NCBI GenBank assembly: GCA_019114755.1
Contig: DXEW01000030.1
Coordinates: 1 to 38,399 of the forward strand
DNA: 38,399 nt
Origin: Candidatus Borkfalkia faecavium
GTDB lineage: Bacteria > Bacillota > Clostridia > Christensenellales > Borkfalkiaceae
Direction of reading: 5' to 3'
Shown in pieces: positions 18,189 through 26,148 of the stretch. The notes under the pieces were generated by a model that did not search any database, was not told where the DNA came from, and saw only the letters and a list, made by a program, of their open reading frames with translations. The stretch's first letter is position 1. Every line of letters starts with the position of its first letter. Both the position numbers and the translations under genes were made by a program.

Positions 18189-18845
18189 TTATGTATCATA
18201 TTCTTGCAAACGGCGCATGGATAATTTGCAACTTATTGTAGACATGATAGCATAAATCGCCATTCCTATGATCAAAGCGGCCGCTTTTGCGCCCGTGTTT
18301 ACAGAATTCAGCCCGTTCAGCGTGATGGAATATAACGGCGTTACCCAGCGTAAAACGATAAAGACGCCGATCAGCAAGAATACGACGATCGCACCTATTA
18401 CGAACGGAACCCCGATCTTATCCGGGGATTTGAAGTAACGAGGAAAAAAGATCAGGTTGAACACGCCGAGCAGTATTGCACCATTGCCGACCAAAGCAAG
18501 ATTCGCCGAGATCCCCGCTTGATTGACATACTGTTCCGCAGGCAAAACAGCGCCTTTAACTGCGCCGATAATTCCCACAAGCAATAAAATTATACACTGC
18601 AATCCAATCGTTACGAGTATTTTTGCAAGAGGGATATGCTCCTTTTTTACGGGCAATGCGCAGGAAAAGGAAATATCACCGTTTTCCCTTGTCATCATAC
18701 AGCAGAAAAATACCGAAAGGCAAGAGAAAAAGAAAATGACTTCATACGGATAATTCGGCACAAATACAAGCGCGGCAAAGGCGAGAAAGATAAAAGCCGT
18801 AGGGTGCAAGCATAAAGCTATTTCTTTTTTAATCAGATTCAGCAT
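18189..18845 (-). CDS. ABC-2 type transporter permease
   Basis: 218 residues with about six hydrophobic helices (clear segments near 15-28, 33-50, 80-98, 115-130, 150-168 and 190-205) and no enzymatic motif, matching the small ABC-2 permeases of Firmicutes that pair with a single ATPase. Its start overlaps the ATPase gene by 17 bases. The substrate cannot be told; relatives move antibiotics, peptides or lipids, or act in stress resistance. GC content and codon use are visibly lower than in the block to the left. Confidence 0.85.
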   Translation of the reverse strand: MLNLIKKEIALCLHPTAFIFLAFAALVFVPNYPYEVIFFFSCLSVFFCCMMTRENGDISFSCALPVKKEHIPLAKILVTIGLQCIILLLVGIIGAVKGAVLPAEQYVNQAGISANLALVGNGAILLGVFNLIFFPRYFKSPDKIGVPFVIGAIVVFLLIGVFIVLRWVTPLYSITLNGLNSVNTGAKAAALIIGMAIYAIMSTISCKLSMRRLQEYDT

Positions 18846-19689
18846 ACCTTTTCTCCTCGTTTGCCTTTTCCAAATGAACTATGATATTGTCTATCGTTGC
18901 GTCTGCAAAAGTAACTCCGTTCAATCTTTGCGTATCGTGCGGAAGAAGTCCTTCATATCCTTCCTTTACCGACTTGACACCGATGGCATTTGCTGCCGTT
19001 GCGTCTGCAAGAGAAGAAAAATGCGCCAACTTATATTGATCAAGCAATTCTTTTAGCGGACACGCCGCAAGAATTTTCCCTTGCGAAATATAAACGATAT
19101 CGTCTGCAATTCGCATAAGATCTGACGTTATGTGCGTAGAGAAAAGAACCGATACGCCTTCTTCGCGTACAAGCTGTAAAATAATGTCGCAAAACTCTTC
19201 ACGGGAAAGCGGATCGAGACCGCTTGTCGGCTCGTCCATAATGAGCAATTTTGCTCCGTGCGAGAGGGCGAGGGCAAGCGCAAACTTTACCTTCATTCCT
19301 TCGGAAAGCTCTTTTACCTTTTTACTTTCAATAAGCTCGAATTGCGAAAGGAATTTTTCATATTTACTTTGATTCCACGTCGGATAAAAAGGCGCGTATG
19401 CTTTGCGTATTGCTACGAGCGTATTCATAGGATAATATCGAAAACCGCCTCCGACATAACCTATCATTTGTTTAACAGCCATTTCCTCTTTGAGAAAATC
19501 TTTCCCAAAAGCAGAGACGCGTCCTTCTGCATTGATAAGGCGCAAAATACCCTTAATTGTTGTGCTTTTCCCTGCGCCGTTTCTTCCAATAAGTCCGGAA
19601 ATATGTCCCTGCTGTACACAAAAACTAACTTTGTCCAGTGTAAATTCAGGATAGACTTTCTTCAATTCTTTTACTTCAAGCGCGTTCAT
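18829..19689 (-). CDS. ABC transporter ATP-binding protein
   Basis: 286 residues: an ABC nucleotide-binding domain in residues 1-215 with Walker A GLIGRNGAGKSTTIKG, signature ELSEGMKVKFALALAL, Walker B LLIMDEPTSGLDPL and switch His in VLFSTHITSD, then a C-terminal extension of about 70 residues. It powers the ABC-2 permease encoded directly downstream. The start ATG overlaps the stop of the AbrB gene (ATGA at 19686-19689), so the three genes form one translationally coupled cassette. Confidence 0.93.
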   Translation of the reverse strand: MNALEVKELKKVYPEFTLDKVSFCVQQGHISGLIGRNGAGKSTTIKGILRLINAEGRVSAFGKDFLKEEMAVKQMIGYVGGGFRYYPMNTLVAIRKAYAPFYPTWNQSKYEKFLSQFELIESKKVKELSEGMKVKFALALALSHGAKLLIMDEPTSGLDPLSREEFCDIILQLVREEGVSVLFSTHITSDLMRIADDIVYISQGKILAACPLKELLDQYKLAHFSSLADATAANAIGVKSVKEGYEGLLPHDTQRLNGVTFADATIDNIIVHLEKANEEKRYAESD

Positions 19690-19913
19690 TTTTCCTCTTT
19701 ATCTCCGCTTTTAACTTGATTGACTGCATTCCAAAGCGTTTCCATATATGAAAACGGCTGCAAAGCAATACCTTGCCCTTTGTCTGCCATTAAAACCAAA
19801 GAATCTCCGGTATTTAACGAAAACATATCCCGCACCTCTTTTGGAATGACAATCTGCCCTTTGGGGCCGATTTTTACCGTAGTCAAAAACTTACCTTCGG
19901 GGAAATTCTCCAT
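19686..19913 (-). CDS. AbrB/SpoVT-type transcriptional regulator
   Basis: 75 residues with one swapped-hairpin AbrB domain: KIGPKGQIVIPKEVRDMF, then NTGDSLVLMADKGQGIAL. Such proteins dimerize and bind DNA at promoters. As first gene of the AbrB-ABC-permease operon it probably controls its own promoter; no operator can be identified with certainty. The ribosome binding site AAAGGAG lies seven bases before the ATG. Confidence 0.9.
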   Translation of the reverse strand: MENFPEGKFLTTVKIGPKGQIVIPKEVRDMFSLNTGDSLVLMADKGQGIALQPFSYMETLWNAVNQVKSGDKEEK

Positions 19914-19954
19914 AATACACTCCTTTGGTATAATTAGTATTACTTTTCTTACTT

Positions 19955-19983
19955 ATTATAACTCGTGATGTGTTGTGTGTCAA
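19955..19983 (-). promoter_or_regulatory. Perfect consensus promoter of the AbrB-ABC operon
   Basis: On the minus strand: TTGACA (19983-19978), 17-base spacer, TATAAT (19960-19955), both hexamers fully consensus. Such a strong promoter ahead of a regulator gene implies that repression is needed. Confidence 0.9.
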
Positions 19984-20023
19984 GCAAAAGTAGATAATTA
20001 AACGCGCACACCACAAAAAGTGT

Positions 20024-20036
20024 AAACATATGTTCG
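20024..20036. promoter_or_regulatory. LexA-box-like palindrome upstream of the candidate RNA promoter
   Basis: AAACATATGTTCG matches the Gram-positive SOS box GAAC-N4-GTTC except for the first base; AACATATGTT is a perfect 10-base palindrome. It ends nine bases before the -35 hexamer at 20045. Binding is not shown. Confidence 0.35.
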
Positions 20037-20044
20037 TATTTTAC

Positions 20045-20074
20045 TTGACAAATAGGTTTGTACTGTGATATAAT
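20045..20074 (+). promoter_or_regulatory. Sigma-A promoter of the candidate structured RNA
   Basis: TTGACA (20045-20050), 18-base spacer, TATAAT (20069-20074), both hexamers consensus. Transcription would start near 20081-20083. Confidence 0.8.
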
Positions 20075-20081
20075 GCGAATG

Positions 20082-20569
20082 TATCGGAGAAGATACAAGA
20101 AAAATGCCCGTATCGGTGAAAGAAACGAGAGGTTGAGTCTGTTCCCATTGCCTTATGCAGTTTGCGACTGTTCGGCTATATGGCTTTAACGGACTGGATC
20201 GGCTGGCGGCGAATCGGCCGTAAAAGCGGCATTTTGAAAAACAAAAAACGGTACCCGAGCAGGTTGGTTTCCGATTTAGCCCTGCACTTCTTTATAGTGT
20301 TGCGCAGTTACTTGCGAGCTTGCGACGACGGGTTGTGAAGAATAACTGTTTTGTTGCGCTGTGACCTGAGAAACTTTCAGTAGCCGACGGCAGTTGTCAC
20401 TGTTTATAACGGGCGGTTTTTACGACCGCTTGCGGTGGAGTAAATTACTTCCGCCGTTGCTTTTGTTGCGTTTTTTAGCGTAGACAAGAGCTGTTATAAG
20501 CATACCGTTTTTAGGACAATTCATAGTCATTTCGGTCCATAGGAAGGTAATGCTTTCTATGGACTTTTT
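20082..20569 (+). ncRNA. Candidate large structured non-coding RNA (about 490 nt) of the mobile element
   Basis: The stretch is bounded by a consensus promoter and an intrinsic terminator, yet neither strand holds a convincing reading frame. Many helices can be drawn: GTATC 20081-20085/GATAC 20092-20096; a long-range stem AAAATGCC 20101-20108/GGCATTTT 20228-20235 enclosing hairpins at 20170-20194 and 20200-20220; CAGTTA 20305-20310/TAACTG 20343-20348; GTGAC 20361-20365/GTCAC 20396-20400 enclosing hairpin 20366-20380; GCGGT 20413/ACCGC 20425; and a 10-bp stem 20433-20456. No motif of RNase P RNA, tmRNA or a T-box was seen. By size and context it could be one of the large ornate phage/element RNAs such as ROOL; that comparison was not run. 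A long untranslated leader of the mob operon is the main alternative. Confidence 0.55.
20535..20569 (+). terminator. Intrinsic terminator of the candidate RNA
   Basis: A 12-bp stem with one G-U pair (GTCCATAGGAAG 20535-20546 with CTTTCTATGGAC 20553-20564), six-base loop, then TTTTT. Confidence 0.85.
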
Positions 20570-20645
20570 GTTTTATTTCGCGCTATCTGCCTACCGCCTT
20601 ACACCGTAGGAATAGATAGAAAAATAAAAAATTTGGAGGAAAGTT

Positions 20646-20739
20646 ATGAGCAAGATAAAAACAATCAGACCGCCGTGATCGTGAAACCAAACAGAAAGTA
20701 ACAGCCGTAAAACGGCAAGCAAAAATTTTATTACTTTGA
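20646..20739 (+). pseudogene. Broken small ORF upstream of oriT (about 31 codons if repaired)
   Basis: GGAGGA (20635-20640) stands five bases before ATG 20646, an excellent start, but the frame ends after ten codons (MSKIKTIRPP). Dropping one base at 20667 joins it to an open frame reading DRRDRETKQKVTAVKRQAK and ending ILLL at TGA 20737-20739. The result would be a basic peptide of about 31 residues. I infer a single-base insertion; the alternative is a genuine ten-codon leader peptide. Family not recognized. Confidence 0.35.
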
Positions 20740-20851
20740 GGGCTCCCGCAAAAGATTGCGTAACAAGATTTTGTGGGAAAAGGAGAAACAACGGAGCGAA
20801 ATGTGCGGCGACGCTTGCGGCGCTGCACGGAAAGCAAAGTTTGTTTCGACG

Positions 20852-20894
20852 CGAAGTATAGCCCACTATACTTCGTTCCGAAGTTTAGTGGGCT
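20852..20894 (+). other. oriT: Putative oriT of the MobV (pMV158-like) type
   Basis: Two mutually exclusive hairpins overlap here: CGAAGTATA 20852-20860/TATACTTCG 20867-20875 (perfect 9 bp) and AGCCCACTATACTTCG 20860-20875/CGAAGTTTAGTGGGCT 20879-20894 (15 of 16 pairs). The right arm ends TTTAGTGGG-CT, close to the pMV158 nick region TAGTGTG/TTA, which also sits at the base of such a hairpin; the predicted nick is between 20892 and 20893. It lies directly upstream of a MobV relaxase, its expected location. An attenuator hairpin is the alternative. Confidence 0.7.
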
Positions 20895-20958
20895 CTGCGA
20901 GGCTTTTTAACAGGAAAAAATCAAAGGAGATAAATCTATAAGCTATTTAGTTTGTCAC

Positions 20959-22008
20959 ATGGAAAAGTATCACAAGACGGACATTGCGCCCGTCGAACAG
21001 GAGAACGAACGCGACGAAACCTATCGGGCGAGCAACCCGCAGATCGATTGCTCACGCACGAACGGCAACTATCACATTATCAAGCGGCAGCGCAGCTACA
21101 CGCAATTCATCAACGATAAGATCGAAGCTCTCTACTTGCCTACGAAAGTTCGGAAGGACGCCGTGCTTATGTGTTCTTTCGTCGTGGGTTCGGACAGAGA
21201 ATTTTTCAAAAGTTTATCAGTACGGGAACAGGAAAAATTCTTTGCGGATTGTACTCGTTTTTTTGCAGACAGATACAGCGAAGGCAATATTATCTCGGCG
21301 GTCGTACACATGGACGAAACTACGCCGCATCTGCATCTGAACTTAATCCCGATTGCTGACGGCAGACTCTGCGCCAAGCAACTGTTTGACCGCAAGGCAT
21401 TGCAGGAATTGCAGACTGACTTTTATTCTGTCGTGGGAAAGAAATGGAATTTACAACGCGGCAAGGAAGGAAGTCAGGAGAAGCACCTCTCCACGGCAGA
21501 GTATAAGGCGAAGAAAATTGTCGAGCAAGCGCGCGGGGAAGCGAGCGGCATACTCGCAGAAGCCGATCAAAAAGCGGAGCGCAAAGTGCAGATTGCCAGA
21601 CTTCACGCGGACGGCATTGTATCACAGGCGGAACGGACGGCGGAAAAAGCCAAACGGCAAGCGCAGGAATATCTGGACGGGATTGTGCAAGGCATCGATG
21701 CAGAGCGCAGCAAGCCCACGCCGAAACGCAAGAAACAAGCCGAAGAAGAACTTGTCTCTCTTCGCACGGAGAATGCCGCCTTGCGTCAATCGAAAGAAAT
21801 TGCCGACCGCGACCGCAGCGACTTGTTCGAACAGTTGCAAAAAGCCGAGCGGCGCGCCAAAGGCAAGGAACAGGCATTCGGGATGGTAAGCGATATGCTT
21901 GCCGCCTATCCGGACGAGTTCGACGCTTTGTTAAACAAATCGCGACAGAAGAAAGCAGAGCCCTATTATAAAGGTAACAGCCGTGGCAACGACCGCGGTG
22001 GCAAGTAA
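20959..22008 (+). CDS. MobV/Mob_Pre family relaxase (plasmid mobilization protein)
   Basis: Nicks oriT and pilots the transferred strand during mobilization. From ATG 20959 it has 349 residues. The metal-binding histidine motif is HMDETTPHLHLNLIP (117 onward) and the N-terminal domain spans about 200 residues. It is followed by a long coiled-coil region rich in Ala, Glu, Gln and Lys (about 190-320). Family members start with M-S-Y-L-V-C-H-M-E-K-Y-H-K; here SYLVCH is encoded directly upstream in frame, but the expected start codon at 20938 is ATA, eight bases after AAAGGAG (20923-20929). ATG 20959 has no Shine-Dalgarno site. So translation either starts at ATA, or is weak and loses the conserved first residues. 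Confidence 0.88.
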   Translation: MEKYHKTDIAPVEQENERDETYRASNPQIDCSRTNGNYHIIKRQRSYTQFINDKIEALYLPTKVRKDAVLMCSFVVGSDREFFKSLSVREQEKFFADCTRFFADRYSEGNIISAVVHMDETTPHLHLNLIPIADGRLCAKQLFDRKALQELQTDFYSVVGKKWNLQRGKEGSQEKHLSTAEYKAKKIVEQARGEASGILAEADQKAERKVQIARLHADGIVSQAERTAEKAKRQAQEYLDGIVQGIDAERSKPTPKRKKQAEEELVSLRTENAALRQSKEIADRDRSDLFEQLQKAERRAKGKEQAFGMVSDMLAAYPDEFDALLNKSRQKKAEPYYKGNSRGNDRGGK

Positions 22009-22055
22009 CAAAGGAACAAAAAACTGACCGCGGCGCAGGTGTCCTATCGGAGAAA

Positions 22056-22268
22056 ATGAGTAAAGGGATTGAAAGAGCGTCTGCGGCAGAAGAACGGGAA
22101 AAAGTCCGTATGAAACGGAAACGCGTACAATGGCGCGAGAGGAGAAATAATTATGAAAAAACCATTGACATGATAAGTAAATATTGGGAGGATATCGACC
22201 ACGGGGAAAATAAAGCAGCAAATGTGTGCGGAGCTCAACTCTGCACCCACCTCTATGAGCGAATATGA
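22056..22268 (+). CDS. Small basic hypothetical protein after the relaxase
   Basis: 70 residues, strongly charged in the first half (EEREKVRMKRKRVQWRERR), predicted helical, with CGGAG three bases before the ATG. Position between relaxase and recombinase is typical for small accessory proteins of mobilizable elements. It overlaps the following small ORF in another frame, so probably only one of the two is real. Family not recognized. Confidence 0.35.
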   Translation: MSKGIERASAAEEREKVRMKRKRVQWRERRNNYEKTIDMISKYWEDIDHGENKAANVCGAQLCTHLYERI

Positions 22269-22389
22269 GATCGGGGGAAGAAAATACATCGTTGTGAGCC
22301 ATTATGTCGGAAACAAGGACTTCAAAAAGGTATTCGACGATCTGGCTTTCAGTCAGGTGCTTGCGGATATGCAAAATTCCGTAAGGTGA
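22222..22389 (+). CDS. Small hypothetical protein, possibly TnpW-like
   Basis: 55 residues from ATG 22222 (or 44 from ATG 22255). The core EYEIGGRKYIVVSHYVGNKD resembles the short beta-hairpin opening (IGG-x-x-Y-IV) of transposon-encoded TnpW-type proteins found beside serine recombinases in Clostridia; I base this on pattern memory only. The stop lies just before the recombinase promoter. Ribosome binding is weak (GGGGAAAATAAAG upstream). Confidence 0.45.
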   Translation: MCAELNSAPTSMSEYEIGGRKYIVVSHYVGNKDFKKVFDDLAFSQVLADMQNSVR

Positions 22390-22404
22390 TTTGTATCGGG
22401 CGGC

Positions 22405-22433
22405 TTGAAATTTTCGGTGTGCCGTGCTATAAT
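22405..22433 (+). promoter_or_regulatory. Promoter of the serine recombinase with a palindrome over the -10 box
   Basis: TTGAAA (22405-22410), 17-base spacer, TATAAT (22428-22433). The -10 box is the centre of an imperfect palindrome GTGCCGTG...CATGGCAC (22419-22441), a likely operator. Confidence 0.75.
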
Positions 22434-22481
22434 CATGGCACATTGAAAATTCAGGCTGCTTTGATTCGAAGGAGTAAAAGA

Positions 22482-24125
22482 ATGCAATCAAAGCAAAACA
22501 ACAAAGACTACATTGTCGGAATGTATGTAAGACTCAGCCGCGACGACGAGCGCGCAGGAGAATCTCTCTCTATCGAAAACCAAAAAGCCATTCTTTCGGA
22601 ATATATAGAAACGCAGGGTTGGACGCTCCACGACATCTATGTGGATGACGGTATTTCGGGAACGACGTTTGAAAGGCCGGGCGTTAAGAGATTGCTTGAA
22701 GACGCAAAGCAAGGCGTCATCAATACGATCCTTGTAAAAGACATGAGCCGTTTCGGAAGAAACTATATCATGGTCGGGCAGTATCTCGATTACATCTTTC
22801 CCTCGTTCGGCATACGGTTTGTGGCGCTTTCGGACAACATCGACACGGAGAATAAGGATACCCCCGCGATGGACATGATGCCGATCACCAACGTATTCAA
22901 TGAATGGTGGGCGGCAACTACGAGTAAGAAGCTGCGCGCCGTCCGCGTTAAGAATGCTAAGGAAGGCAAAAACGGAATGTCCCACGCGCCATACGGCTAT
23001 ATTCTCGGAACGGATGAAAAGCGCACACTGCAAGTCAATCCAGAGACCGCACCCGTTGTCAGGCGCATCTTTGAGATGCGTGCGTGCGGCATGACGCCGA
23101 GAAAGATAGCGGATATTCTCAACGTGGAAAAAGTTCTTACGCCCAACGATTACAGAATTGCAACGACGGGCATCAACGGCGTGCGGAATTCTTCGCATCT
23201 GTGGCATACGACCGTATTGAGAACGCTTCTGAACAATCAGGCTTACATCGGCAATTTAGTCCAGCACAAGTCGACTACAATTTCATATAAAAACCACAAG
23301 TGGCAACGCCGCCCCGAAGAAGAATGGATCCTTGTCGAAAACGCGCACGAGGCTATCATCTCGAAAGAGTTGTGGGATAAGGTTAAGGAAGTCGAAAAAG
23401 CCGTAGGACACGGAAAGCACACCGCGAGAGGCTATATGCACCCGTTGTCGGGACTGATGTTCTGTGCAGACTGCGGTGCAAAAATGCGGCTGGGTTGGAA
23501 TACGACATACATAAAACGGCTTGGCAGAGAAAATACGTATTTCAACTTCAATTGCGGAACAAAGTCGCGTATGGGCTCGTCTGCCTGTTTCAGTCACTTT
23601 ATCCCCGTACCTGTTTTGGAACAGATCGTAAAACAAGACGTTGCTGCAAAAGCCAAGATGATCATTGGGCGTGAGGCTGAATTCAAACAGCGGTATTTAC
23701 AGCGGCAGACGACTCTTGCAGACGCCAATCAAGCTGAGGTCAAGAAAGAGTTGAAAAAAGCCGAAAAGCGATTGCGTGAACTCGAAAAGCTGATCGAAGC
23801 CGCATTTGAAGAGAAAGTTGCAGGAAAGATACCCGAAAACGTGTGTATTAAGTTGATTGAAAAGTACACCGCCGAACAGACGGAATTGCAAGAAAAGATG
23901 GTTTCACTTAACGACGGGCTTAAAGAAGTAACACAAGCCAAGACAGATGTGGACGAATTTATCCGCAGACTGAAACTGTACTTTGATTCGCCCACGCTGA
24001 CGCGCGAGATGTGTTTGGCACTATTCGACAGACTCATCATTGGAGGCAAAGAAACGGTCACGGGCAAGCCGCAGGAAATCCACATCTATTATAAGATCGA
24101 CATCGACTCGGTTTTATCCGTCTGA
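22482..24125 (+). CDS. Large serine recombinase (resolvase/recombinase/zinc-ribbon domains)
   Basis: 547 residues from ATG 22482, with AAGGAG eight bases upstream. The N-terminal resolvase domain has the catalytic serine in YVRLSRDDE (Ser19) and the arginine segment VKDMSRFGRNY. The recombinase domain (about 165-290) includes PYGYILG and GMTPRKIADILN. The zinc ribbon holds Cys328, Cys331 (CADCG), Cys358 and Cys369, and a coiled coil (about 395-480) follows. Such enzymes excise and integrate Tn4451-type and similar elements. The gene is intact with its own promoter, so the element is probably still able to move. It ends about 40 bases before the truncated second recombinase. Confidence 0.93.
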   Translation: MQSKQNNKDYIVGMYVRLSRDDERAGESLSIENQKAILSEYIETQGWTLHDIYVDDGISGTTFERPGVKRLLEDAKQGVINTILVKDMSRFGRNYIMVGQYLDYIFPSFGIRFVALSDNIDTENKDTPAMDMMPITNVFNEWWAATTSKKLRAVRVKNAKEGKNGMSHAPYGYILGTDEKRTLQVNPETAPVVRRIFEMRACGMTPRKIADILNVEKVLTPNDYRIATTGINGVRNSSHLWHTTVLRTLLNNQAYIGNLVQHKSTTISYKNHKWQRRPEEEWILVENAHEAIISKELWDKVKEVEKAVGHGKHTARGYMHPLSGLMFCADCGAKMRLGWNTTYIKRLGRENTYFNFNCGTKSRMGSSACFSHFIPVPVLEQIVKQDVAAKAKMIIGREAEFKQRYLQRQTTLADANQAEVKKELKKAEKRLRELEKLIEAAFEEKVAGKIPENVCIKLIEKYTAEQTELQEKMVSLNDGLKEVTQAKTDVDEFIRRLKLYFDSPTLTREMCLALFDRLIIGGKETVTGKPQEIHIYYKIDIDSVLSV

Positions 24126-25290
24126 CAACTTAAAACCCTAAAATAAGTTTTATGTCCATTTGACTTGTTAGAAGGTTATGCAGAATATTATTCTGTTGAA
24201 CTTGGAGAAAAAGTCACGCGCGGAATGACGGACAATGCCTTGAAAGCTATGTCCAACGGAGGAATTACTCCACTCGGCTATTATTTAGATGAAGAACAGC
24301 ATTTACAAATAGACGAGAAGAAAGCACCGTTTGTACGGGAAATATTCCAAAGATATGCCGACGGCGAGATGATTAAATCGATTATCGATGATATGAATGC
24401 TCGAGGCGTGGGAATTACCGTTCGGATGAAAAAGAAGGTCGGCAAAAAGGCTTACGAAAAATCACTCGATTATAACAATGTGCGCAGAATGCTTTCCAAC
24501 CGCAAATACATCGGAGAATATCGCTTTAAAGATATCGTTCTTGAAAATGCAATTCCCCCGATCATAGAAAAAGACTTGTTTGAAAAAGTACAAAAGCGAA
24601 TTGCCGTAAATACCCGTGCTCCGGCGATCCATAAAGCGGAAGATTTGTATTTACTCACCACGCACCTTTTTTGCGGCAAATGTAAGGCAATGATGATCGG
24701 TGAAAGCGGCAAAGGAAAGAGCGGTACCGTCTACCATTACTACAAATGCGTCAATGCAAAGAAAGGTCATTCTTGTGACAAAAAAGCCATCGCCAAAGAA
24801 AAAATTGAAAGTGCTGTCATCAATGCGGTTATGAAAAAAATCATGGATGACACGTTAATGGAACAGTTATCCTATAAACTTTACGATTTGCAAATGCAAA
24901 GCAATTCAATTTTGCCTGCACTACGAGAGCAATTATCAGATGTAGAAAAAGGTATTGATAATATGCTCGATGCAATACAGCAAGGCATTGTTCTGGAAAG
25001 CACAAAAAAACGGCTTTCCGATTTGGAAAACCGTAAAAAGCAATTAGAGATTGATATTGCGCAGGAAGAGATCAAGAATCCTCTCCTTACGAGAGAACAG
25101 ATCGAATTTGGATTGACGCGATTTCGTAATTTAGATATATCCACGCAGAGAGGAAAGCAAACACTGATCGACAGCTTTGTGAATGCAATCTTTCTTTTTG
25201 ACGATTACGCAGTCGTTACCTGCAACTATAAGGACGGTGAGGAAAAGATTACTTTTGAAGATATAGAAAATTCTGAACTTGGCGACTACA

Positions 25291-25333: not shown

Positions 25334-25409
25334 TGGTGACCCCATCGGGACTCGAACCCGAGTTACCGCCGTGAAAGGGCGATGTCTTAGACCGCTTGAC
25401 CATGGGGCC
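25334..25409 (-). tRNA. tRNA-Glu (TTC)
   Basis: 76 nt with encoded CCA. Acceptor GGCCCCA/TGGGGTC, anticodon stem TCGCC/GGCGG with loop CTTTCAC (anticodon TTC), T arm TCGGG-TTCGAGT-CCCGA. All arms pair. Confidence 0.96.
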
Positions 25410-25479
25410 GCTTTGCTTTGCGGTAAAACCGCTCCGCTATATTCTAAAACCAAGGGGATTATCCCTTAGATTTATGCTT

Positions 25480-25557
25480 TGGTAGCGATGGGTGGATTCG
25501 AACCGCCGACCTGCCGGGTATGAACCGGCCGCTATAGACCAACTAAGCTACATCGCC
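25480..25557 (-). tRNA. tRNA-Met (CAT), elongator type
   Basis: 78 nt with encoded CCA. Acceptor GGCGATG/CATCGCT (first pair G-U), anticodon stem GCCGG/CCGGC with loop TTCATAC (anticodon CAT), T arm GGCGG-TTCGAAT-CCACC, which contains one internal C-A mismatch. The sequence is closest to elongator tRNA-Met; tRNA-Ile2 with lysidine also has a CAT gene anticodon, but its usual acceptor sequence differs. Confidence 0.9.
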
Positions 25558-26071
25558 ATTAAAATCGTGCGTTTAATGGCGGCAAACATACCGCGACTTA
25601 AGCGCACGTTTGTTATCTGTTGAATTTTTTAAGATTTCTCCGTTGCGCCCGCAAGGCTCGCTTCGGTCGGAATGACAGAGGAGAGGCGCACGCAAATCAA
25701 CAATCCCTCAAGCGCTACGCGCCAGCTCTCGTCGTGCGTGCGGCGAATAAACCGCACGACTCGGTCACCTCTCGGGCGGAGCCGTATGCCCTCGCCCATC
25801 TCGCGGAGCCAAATGGCGGGTGTCCGCCATTTAGAGAACTCTTCGCTCGTCCTTCTACAAGGGCGCCTTTACTGCGGCATAACCCCTTCACCAAAAATAT
25901 CTCCAGAGATTTTTGGTGAAAAATGAGGAACCGACTTCAAAAAATCTTTACCTCATTATAAAGCTCCTCGCGAAAAGTATCGAAGAACTTTTCGCGAAAA
26001 GCGAGGAGCCGGTGCGAAAGCAATTAATTCGGGCGAGCCCGAATTAATGCAAGGGCAACCGTGCTCCGAGC
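25558..26071. other. Long spacer inside the tRNA cluster
   Basis: 514 bases without a supportable gene. Short open frames of fewer than 100 codons exist but overlap palindromes and have no ribosome binding site. The second half consists largely of inverted repeats, listed separately. Confidence 0.6.
25811..26048. repeat. Cluster of four palindromes between tRNA genes
   Basis: Four inverted repeats in 238 bases: AAATGGCGG/CCGCCATTT (25811-25832); a near-perfect 34-base palindrome starting TTCACCAAAAAT (25887-25920); a compound hairpin with outer stem GCTCCTCGC/GCGAGGAGC and inner stem CGCGAAAAGT/ACTTTTCGCG (25963-26009); and ATTAATTCGGGC/GCCCGAATTAAT (26023-26048). They resemble REP- or MITE-type intergenic repeats. 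If transcribed, they would lie between two tRNAs of one precursor. Confidence 0.75.

Positions 26072-26148
<77 letters not shown>

Follow-up and report, generated by a model that had tools for sequence, protein, structure and literature searches.

What is a stretch of some 490 nt that lies between a consensus promoter and an intrinsic terminator, offers no supportable protein and precedes a relaxase gene? The locus lies in a window of 38,399 nt, by which we mean the whole stretch of DNA analysed (Candidatus Borkfalkia faecavium, assembly GCA_019114755.1, contig DXEW01000030.1, positions 1 to 38,399 of the forward strand). A sequence-only reading had proposed a dedicated structured noncoding transcript at the head of a mobilizable element, perhaps ROOL or GOLLD, a relative of these, or a new class. 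The features discussed below are collected in Table 1.

Table 1. Features of the RNA locus and of the element around it (positions in the window).
Feature	Position	Strand	Basis
Mobile element as far as shared	18238..24175	.	blastn vs G348:C2, 98.6%; Pfam
LexA/SOS-type operator, candidate, TAAACATATGTTCG	20023..20036	+	8 bp 5' of the -35
Sigma-70 type promoter, TTGACA-18-TATAAT, extended -10	20045..20074	+	12/12, kept in homologues
Large structured noncoding RNA, ~490 nt	20081..20569	+	5' end inferred from promoter; folding and alignment
5' domain closed by long-range stem 20101-20108 / 20228-20235	20101..20235	+	consensus helix 1
Nearly invariant long-range helix, 20242-20253 (CAAAAAACGGTA) with 20503-20514 (TACCGTTTTTAG)	20242..20514	+	complementarity and conservation
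3' domain: helix 20401-20410 / 20493-20502 around three hairpins	20401..20502	+	inside the stretch used for model R1
Conserved motif GTTATAAGCATACCGTTTTTAGGAC (RTAC-NN-T5), similar to a motif in other mobV elements	20493..20517	+	pattern counts in box-to-mobV intervals
Intrinsic terminator, 13-bp stem 20534-20546 / 20553-20565, then T5	20534..20569	+	consensus helix 23
10-codon micro-ORF MSKIKTIRPP-stop, Shine-Dalgarno GGAGG	20646..20678	+	recurrence across loci
oriT-like inverted repeat CGAAGTATAGCCCACTATACTTCG	20852..20875	.	kept in several homologues, by eye
mobV relaxase gene (Mob_Pre)	20938..22008	+	PF01076, E 5.6e-50, read from internal ATG at 20959

The promoter, the terminator and the folding described by the sequence-only reading were all present where it had placed them. 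The promoter joins TTGACA (20045-20050) to TATAAT (20069-20074) across an 18-bp spacer, with TG ahead of the -10, and scores 12/12. A scan at a loose threshold found two promoters, both scoring 12/12, against a mean of 2.3 in shuffles, so the number of sites as such is at chance level. The score was 11-12/12 in the window and in eight of nine relatives, the ninth (L002) being truncated by the contig start. Among 16 loci, the -10 element was TATAGT in L032 and L034, and no matching -10 was found in L024. The terminator, also conserved in homologues, is paired in 98.9% of the cells of the consensus; the scan found three terminator-like sites, with 1.7 expected. With its consensus promoter, its terminator and no protein frame common to the relatives, 20081-20569 looks like a transcription unit. 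A second 12/12 promoter, on the minus strand at 19955-19983, points into a MazE/AbrB-like gene and an ABC transporter, divergently from the RNA and with the LexA-type box between the two promoters.

We compared the relatives for coding potential. The longest plus-strand ORF in the window RNA has 58 codons, and single sequences contain plus-strand ORFs of 58-150 codons, the longest of them in L029. In the 5' domain, a reading MALTD..KNKKRYPS keeps one frame in the window and in several relatives, yet by eye it is shifted in L026 and L032. The share of variable sites by codon position was 0.54, 0.43 and 0.55 overall and 0.5, 0.3 and 0.5 in the 5' domain, a pattern that could be taken, like these ORFs, as a sign of coding sequence, either an undescribed gene or one in decay. 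We regard such a gene as scarcely credible. Most indels relative to the window (106 of 125) are not multiples of 3 and break the frame, no common ATG with a Shine-Dalgarno sequence was seen among the relatives, and the pair changes described below are compensatory. From the ORF comparison and the indel frames a protein-coding stretch was judged unlikely, in agreement with the earlier view that no supportable protein is present on either strand.

Of 201 genomes of the family, 11 were matched by a DNA search with 20075-20570 as query, one of them the window's own; five other genomes gave nearly full-length matches and the remainder were partial or weak. Three weak matches (L018, L019 and L023) were left aside. 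Another copy, at C25:4-434, lies in the window's own genome, with 73% identity across 424 nt of the query. A 20-base pattern of the 3' end matched 18 stretches in a collection of 84,980 species genomes, under titles naming uncultured Clostridia, Christensenella, Christensenellaceae, Ruminococcus and Candidatus Gallimonas. R1, a covariance model of the 3' domain with 178 positions, was run on 396 genomes of the order and matched five, the window's own among them, from four genera and three families. Beyond the order, where 391 genomes were searched at the class level and 398 at the phylum level, the window's own genome alone matched under strict filters. The model also scored divergent and partial copies among the 17 sources examined. 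The extended pattern TTTWTTGTNRTACVATTTTTT gave a single match in 248 genomes of the order and is therefore too strict for a survey. At one locus (L015, 1432-2100, on G010:C11), a 5' fragment of the RNA lies between two copies of a stretch of about 1.1 kb, by duplication or misassembly; we take the repeat, from reading its genes, to hold the 3' end of an ATPase gene and an oxidase-like gene.

The folding energy of 20045-20569 was -186.6 kcal/mol, compared with -150.0 +/- 6.5 kcal/mol for 100 dinucleotide shuffles (z -5.65), and no shuffle was as good. Fourteen sequences were aligned (A2; L002 without its 5' end), omitting L039, which is nearly identical to the window, and the partial or divergent L028, L034, L037, L025, L031, L022, L015, L024 and L030. 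The A2 consensus has 132 pairs, 24 of them changed on both sides. Its cells were paired in 97.9% of cases, against 38-46% when the 3' partners were slid, and its covariation score of 0.218, against 0.05-0.06 in the slid versions, was reached by none of 500 shuffles. In the 3' domain, aligned for 19 sequences (A4, with L022 omitted for an insertion), both sides changed in 25 of 51 pairs and the score was 0.359, against 0.07-0.11 slid; because each structure was predicted from the very alignment used for its counts, all these counts are biased towards the structures.

Changes placed on a tree gave a similar picture. In 12 cases both partners changed on the same branch; 2000 partner permutations gave 2.9 such cases on average and 10 at most. 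The slid versions had 4-11, near the real value, so the raw count separates little; the canonical-to-canonical changes do separate, at 10 of the 12 against 0-3. One-sided changes kept the pair in 97 of 130 cases, against 51-61% in the slid versions. An all-pairs covariation test (all columns, R-scape-like, tree-preserving null), which took 18 of the A4 sequences, found none of them significant, whether the threshold was E 0.05 or E 1. The consensus folded at -119.6 kcal/mol on the plus strand and at -57.1 kcal/mol on the minus strand, and the plus strand was better in 14 of 14 sequences. Covariation in homologues, the check proposed with the sequence-only reading, is thus seen in the named-pair, tree and 3'-domain counts and is missing from the all-pairs test. 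With that one test negative, homologues, pair changes, strand asymmetry and the conserved promoter and terminator bear out a dedicated structured transcript rather than a spacer.

The long-range closing stem that had been drawn from the single sequence (20101-20108 with 20228-20235) reappeared as helix 1 of the consensus, with 100% of its cells paired and both sides changed in two of eight pairs. The longest helix (20242-20253 with 20503-20514) has 12 pairs, 10 of them invariant, and covariation is silent on it because there is hardly any variation; for the same reason, the two most conserved long helices rest mainly on complementarity. Further features were noticed beside these helices. By eye in the alignment, the invariant GGAC at 20514-20517 could pair with GTCC of the terminator, a candidate for the anti-terminator fold of an attenuator. 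In L026, L032 and L038 (and with one mismatch in L040), the terminator is followed by AAAACGGTATGC, which complements GCATACCGTTTT within the RNA, so that the two might form an alternative pairing. In L037 and L025 an insert in the middle of the RNA resembles, by eye, the GGGCTCCCGC hairpin region that in the window lies 3' of the RNA.

We next turn to the family to which the RNA belongs. Searched against Rfam, the window RNA had no match at the gathering score, and up to E 10 it had unrelated chance matches only. One relative searched up to E 10 likewise had chance matches only, as had the sister loci scanned at that level, and a scan of 20 sister loci yielded tRNAs and one 6S RNA and no family for the RNA. 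No covariance-model match to ROOL, GOLLD, OLE or raiA was obtained. The phage and plasmid collections gave no blastn match to the RNA, and two exact patterns had no match in IMG/VR, which gives no support to a phage- or prophage-borne RNA of the ROOL or GOLLD kind. By these tests the proposed identity with ROOL or GOLLD is not supported, while the structured transcript itself is, and the suggested link to tRNA genes was mixed. ROOL and GOLLD, RNA-only homo-oligomers, often have tRNA islands as neighbours. The tRNA genes of the window (25334-26148) lie outside the shared element, and a tRNA gene was present in the fetched stretch at 5 of 21 related loci and at 6 of 20 sister loci. This distribution is as compatible with tRNA genes being neighbours at which such elements integrate as with a tie between tRNA genes and the RNA. 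Opposite-strand tRNA genes 3' of mobV were also noted in L029 (3814-4117; Glu, Met, Met, as in the window), L035, L040 and L042, and tRNA 3' ends may be integration sites.

We favour, tentatively, a new class of RNA. It resembles GOLLD and ROOL in its several hundred nucleotides, its elaborate fold and its place on mobile DNA, but differs in having no Rfam match at E 10, in being carried by MobV elements with none found in phages, and in its LexA-type box. The raiA-motif or ModT RNA, described as a structured noncoding RNA widespread in Bacillota (PMC11706538), is likewise structured and noncoding, including in Clostridia; the window RNA differs from it by the missing Rfam match, by being element-borne and by its patchy distribution. 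Among the literature matches listed, drawn from sources seen in part, none described a LexA-controlled structured RNA of MobV elements, which is weak evidence of absence since subscription journals were thinly covered.

The element itself contains the MazE/AbrB-like gene, the ABC transporter, the RNA, mobV and a serine recombinase (22476-24125). The shared unit is 98.6% identical to a stretch of G348, a genome of another family, and this identity suggests that the unit probably moved recently. The RNA had been placed at the head of a mobilizable element; it does belong to one, but lies inside it, between the ABC-transporter cargo and mobV. With a Mob_Pre relaxase, a serine recombinase and a unit shared across families, the element has the make-up of a MobV integrative mobilizable element, its oriT being assigned by likeness and its transfer predicted. 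In G348 (L074/L075, G348:C2:110000-149999), the element interrupts a resident large serine recombinase gene at a Leu-Leu-Glu-Gly site, so that its N-terminal part is found to the left of the element and its C-terminal part to the right; CAAATGGACAT / ATGTCCATTTG occur close to the two ends. The right flank of the element in the window is, as in G348, a recombinase lacking its N-terminal part.

The promoter of the RNA has a conserved neighbour. RAAC-N4-GTTY lies exactly 8 bp ahead of the -35 (TTGAC) in all 16 loci with an upstream region, the window included. The pattern was written after inspection of the sequences; the box was not used in finding the loci, as the family search relied on 20075-20570 and the collection search on the 3' pattern. 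A similar box was found upstream of lexA in seven of seven genomes, and none was found at recA in the stretches examined in the seven genomes. The first base is A instead of G in 14 of 16 boxes at RNA loci and in 6 of 7 lexA boxes. YRAACRWWYGTTYR occurs at eight places in the window's genome (1.73 Mb, 90% complete), the RNA locus and lexA among them, and its reversed control at none. The other sites adjoin genes that, by their translations, presumably encode NAD kinase-ArgR, MraZ (two sites), a radical-SAM protein and an ArsR-type regulator, and one unassigned gene. The two LexA-like boxes by the presumed mraZ (L061/L062, at G000:C17:91823 and 91929) raise the possibility that the division cluster is under SOS control.

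The box is close to the published GAAC-N4-GTTC/GTTT of Bacillus and Clostridia; GAAC-N4-GTTC is the LexA consensus in Bacillus, and GAAC-N4-GTTT/GTTC is used for Clostridia (PMC4234289). Judged by its sequence, the promoter of the RNA thus carries an operator of the host's LexA type, from which we infer LexA binding and SOS induction. These comparisons leave the existence of the structured RNA and of the LexA-type box well supported. The box, together with the context of mobV, micro-ORF and oriT-like repeat, adds to what the sequence-only reading had described.

We then considered what lies downstream. The mobV gene is found 3' of the RNA in 14 of 21 related loci and in the window; one of these 14 loci, L039, differs very little from the window, and the relaxases of L026 and L040 are divergent. 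At the other seven loci, L033, L034 and L037 end too soon, L015 has mobV further along the contig, and the partial RNA copies L031, L025 and L022 have no mobV within the stretch examined. L030, 20 bases at a contig edge, stands outside the 21 loci. The inferred start of mobV in the window is AUA (20938-20940), with GGAG ahead. Inferred starts in 36 of 42 readable records were ATA 29, ATT 4, ATC 2 and ATG 1, with a Shine-Dalgarno sequence ahead, so that mobV appears to have a conserved non-canonical initiation. Measured against plasmids, the best among the matches listed shared 33% identity with the window mobV; one IMG/VR locus shared 25%.

Between the RNA terminator and mobV lie both the micro-ORF and the oriT-like repeat. 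A micro-ORF ending in Pro-Pro-stop was present in 9 of 10 examined loci of the window RNA family and in 20 of 30 mobV upstream regions, compared with 3 in 3000 mononucleotide shuffles and none in 30 minus strands or in 30 downstream stretches. It looks like a stalling leader peptide. The repeat appears to resemble a pMV158-type oriT, and pMV158-like MobV/Mob_Pre elements likewise have a Mob_Pre relaxase with an oriT-like inverted repeat upstream; they are not known to carry such an RNA. In the intervals from RNA end to mobV at 10 loci, no promoter scored above 9/12, and 5 of the 10 held a 9/12 site, with about 1.6 expected in all. The sole strong promoter seen ahead of mobV is the one adjoining the LexA-type box, and the RNA terminator thus stands before the gene as in an attenuator or leader, with the weak 9/12 sites as the only other candidates.

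The arrangement is wider than the window RNA. Relatives of mobV were found in 40 of 151 genomes of the family, in more places than the 30 loci fetched and analysed. A LexA-like box was present upstream of mobV in 19 of the 30 loci, the window included: 19 boxes in 45.0 kb upstream against none in 54.7 kb downstream, and none with the reversed pattern. At several of the 11 loci that lack a box the upstream stretch is short, and L098 and L099 look alike. Apart from the window, the boxed loci (L080-L083, L086, L088-L091, L093, L095-L099, L102, L104 and L105) mostly have strongly folded other sequence in the same position. With 40 shuffles each, the plus-strand z of the 19 box-to-mobV stretches ranged from -1.6 to -8.2, against +0.35 to -2.35 for 18 mobV coding controls. 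On the minus strand it ranged from +0.54 to -7.19 and was -2.19 or lower in 18 of 19, and since these minus strands fold well too, the strand is not resolved there. RTAC-N2,3-T5, a pattern chosen after the sequences had been viewed, occurred 30 times in the 19 intervals, against 1.09 expected and one occurrence in 30 kb of mobV coding sequence; 11 of the 19 had two matches and the window one, and in L091 and L093 the pattern fell on terminator stems, which accounts for two of the 30. One group of the sister stretches could be aligned (A5).

Transcript signals, conserved structure, box, synteny and micro-ORF can all be read from the sequences. The parts recur in one order, from the box and promoter through the folded RNA, terminator, micro-ORF and oriT-like repeat to mobV, and this suggests an SOS-gated leader. 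We propose, giving the idea an even chance, that the RNA is an SOS-induced leader that gates mobV in cis, a backbone part of small MobV elements of gut Clostridia that LexA would keep repressed until DNA damage. LexA at the box would repress the RNA promoter, and the SOS response would de-repress this one promoter. Most transcripts would end at the RNA's own terminator and give a free RNA of about 490 nt, while a fraction would read through the micro-ORF and the oriT-like repeat into mobV. The RNA fold and the terminator would set, in cis, how much transcription reaches the relaxase gene and so tie mobilization to the SOS response, and the micro-ORF and the AUA start would keep mobV translation low. 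In this scheme we infer not only LexA binding and induction but also termination, read-through, the influence of the RNA fold on that read-through, and the use of AUA as start codon. Attenuator and leader-peptide systems share the promoter, structured leader, intrinsic terminator, micro-ORF and regulated gene; here, in contrast, the leader measures about 490 nt and has a LexA-type box. The SXT/R391 ICEs show the same link of SOS to element transfer. There, SOS acts via a protein repressor, whereas here a LexA-type box lies directly at the promoter of an RNA that precedes the relaxase gene.

The attenuators known to us are far smaller than this RNA, and its size argues for a role of its own, against the leader reading. 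We consider it nearly as likely that a stand-alone ornate RNA acts in trans: made in bulk under SOS and ending at its terminator, it would serve as a scaffold, cage or regulator that aids mobilization, perhaps like GOLLD or ROOL, with transcription of mobV incidental. The long conserved stretches and the RNA's own promoter and terminator would suit such a product, as would the behaviour of two known RNAs: GOLLD becomes more abundant in phage lysis, and one strain contains as much ROOL as 16S rRNA (PMC12286853). Against a role in trans, the RNA lies upstream of mobV on the same strand in the window and in the 14 of 21 loci where mobV was seen, boxes with folded stretches of other sequence hold the same position, and second promoters for mobV are only weak.

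Two other explanations seem improbable to us. As a sponge, the RNA would use repeated RTAC-NN-UUUUU modules to bind up a U-binding host protein under SOS. The excess of the motif, with two matches in 11 of the 19 intervals, speaks for this idea, but the window has a single copy whose U run is paired in the consensus, the terminator stems account for two of the matches, and no protein is known. More improbable still is a single-stranded DNA signal, such that the hairpins would work in transfer as DNA, in the manner of an oriT or a single-strand origin. Single-strand origins and oriT are folded DNA, the locus adjoins mobV and an oriT-like repeat, and the minus strand also folds well in 18 box-to-mobV stretches other than that of the window. 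Against it, the promoter, the terminator and the LexA-type box are conserved, the consensus of the window family folds about twice as well on the plus strand, and a separate oriT-like repeat lies downstream. The single-strand-origin motif CS-6 was rejected by eye, the hexamer not being conserved.

Returning to the SOS-induced leader in cis, we suggest, somewhat more tentatively, that the window RNA represents a branch within a new superfamily, giant SOS-induced leader RNAs that would govern MobV elements across the clade. Its members would share the box, the promoter, an ornate RNA of several hundred nt with RTAC-NN-UUUUU modules, the terminator, the Pro-Pro-stop micro-ORF, the oriT and an AUA-start relaxase gene, and would form a multi-layer switch that releases the relaxase only under DNA damage.

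Large structured RNAs without an assigned function are a standing puzzle. Here, with DNA damage as the predicted inducer, mobV as a recurrent neighbour and candidate sister families for comparison, function becomes directly testable. If the proposal is true, gut Clostridia would have an RNA-based route by which DNA damage could raise the transfer of small mobile elements, and this RNA may link DNA damage to their spread.
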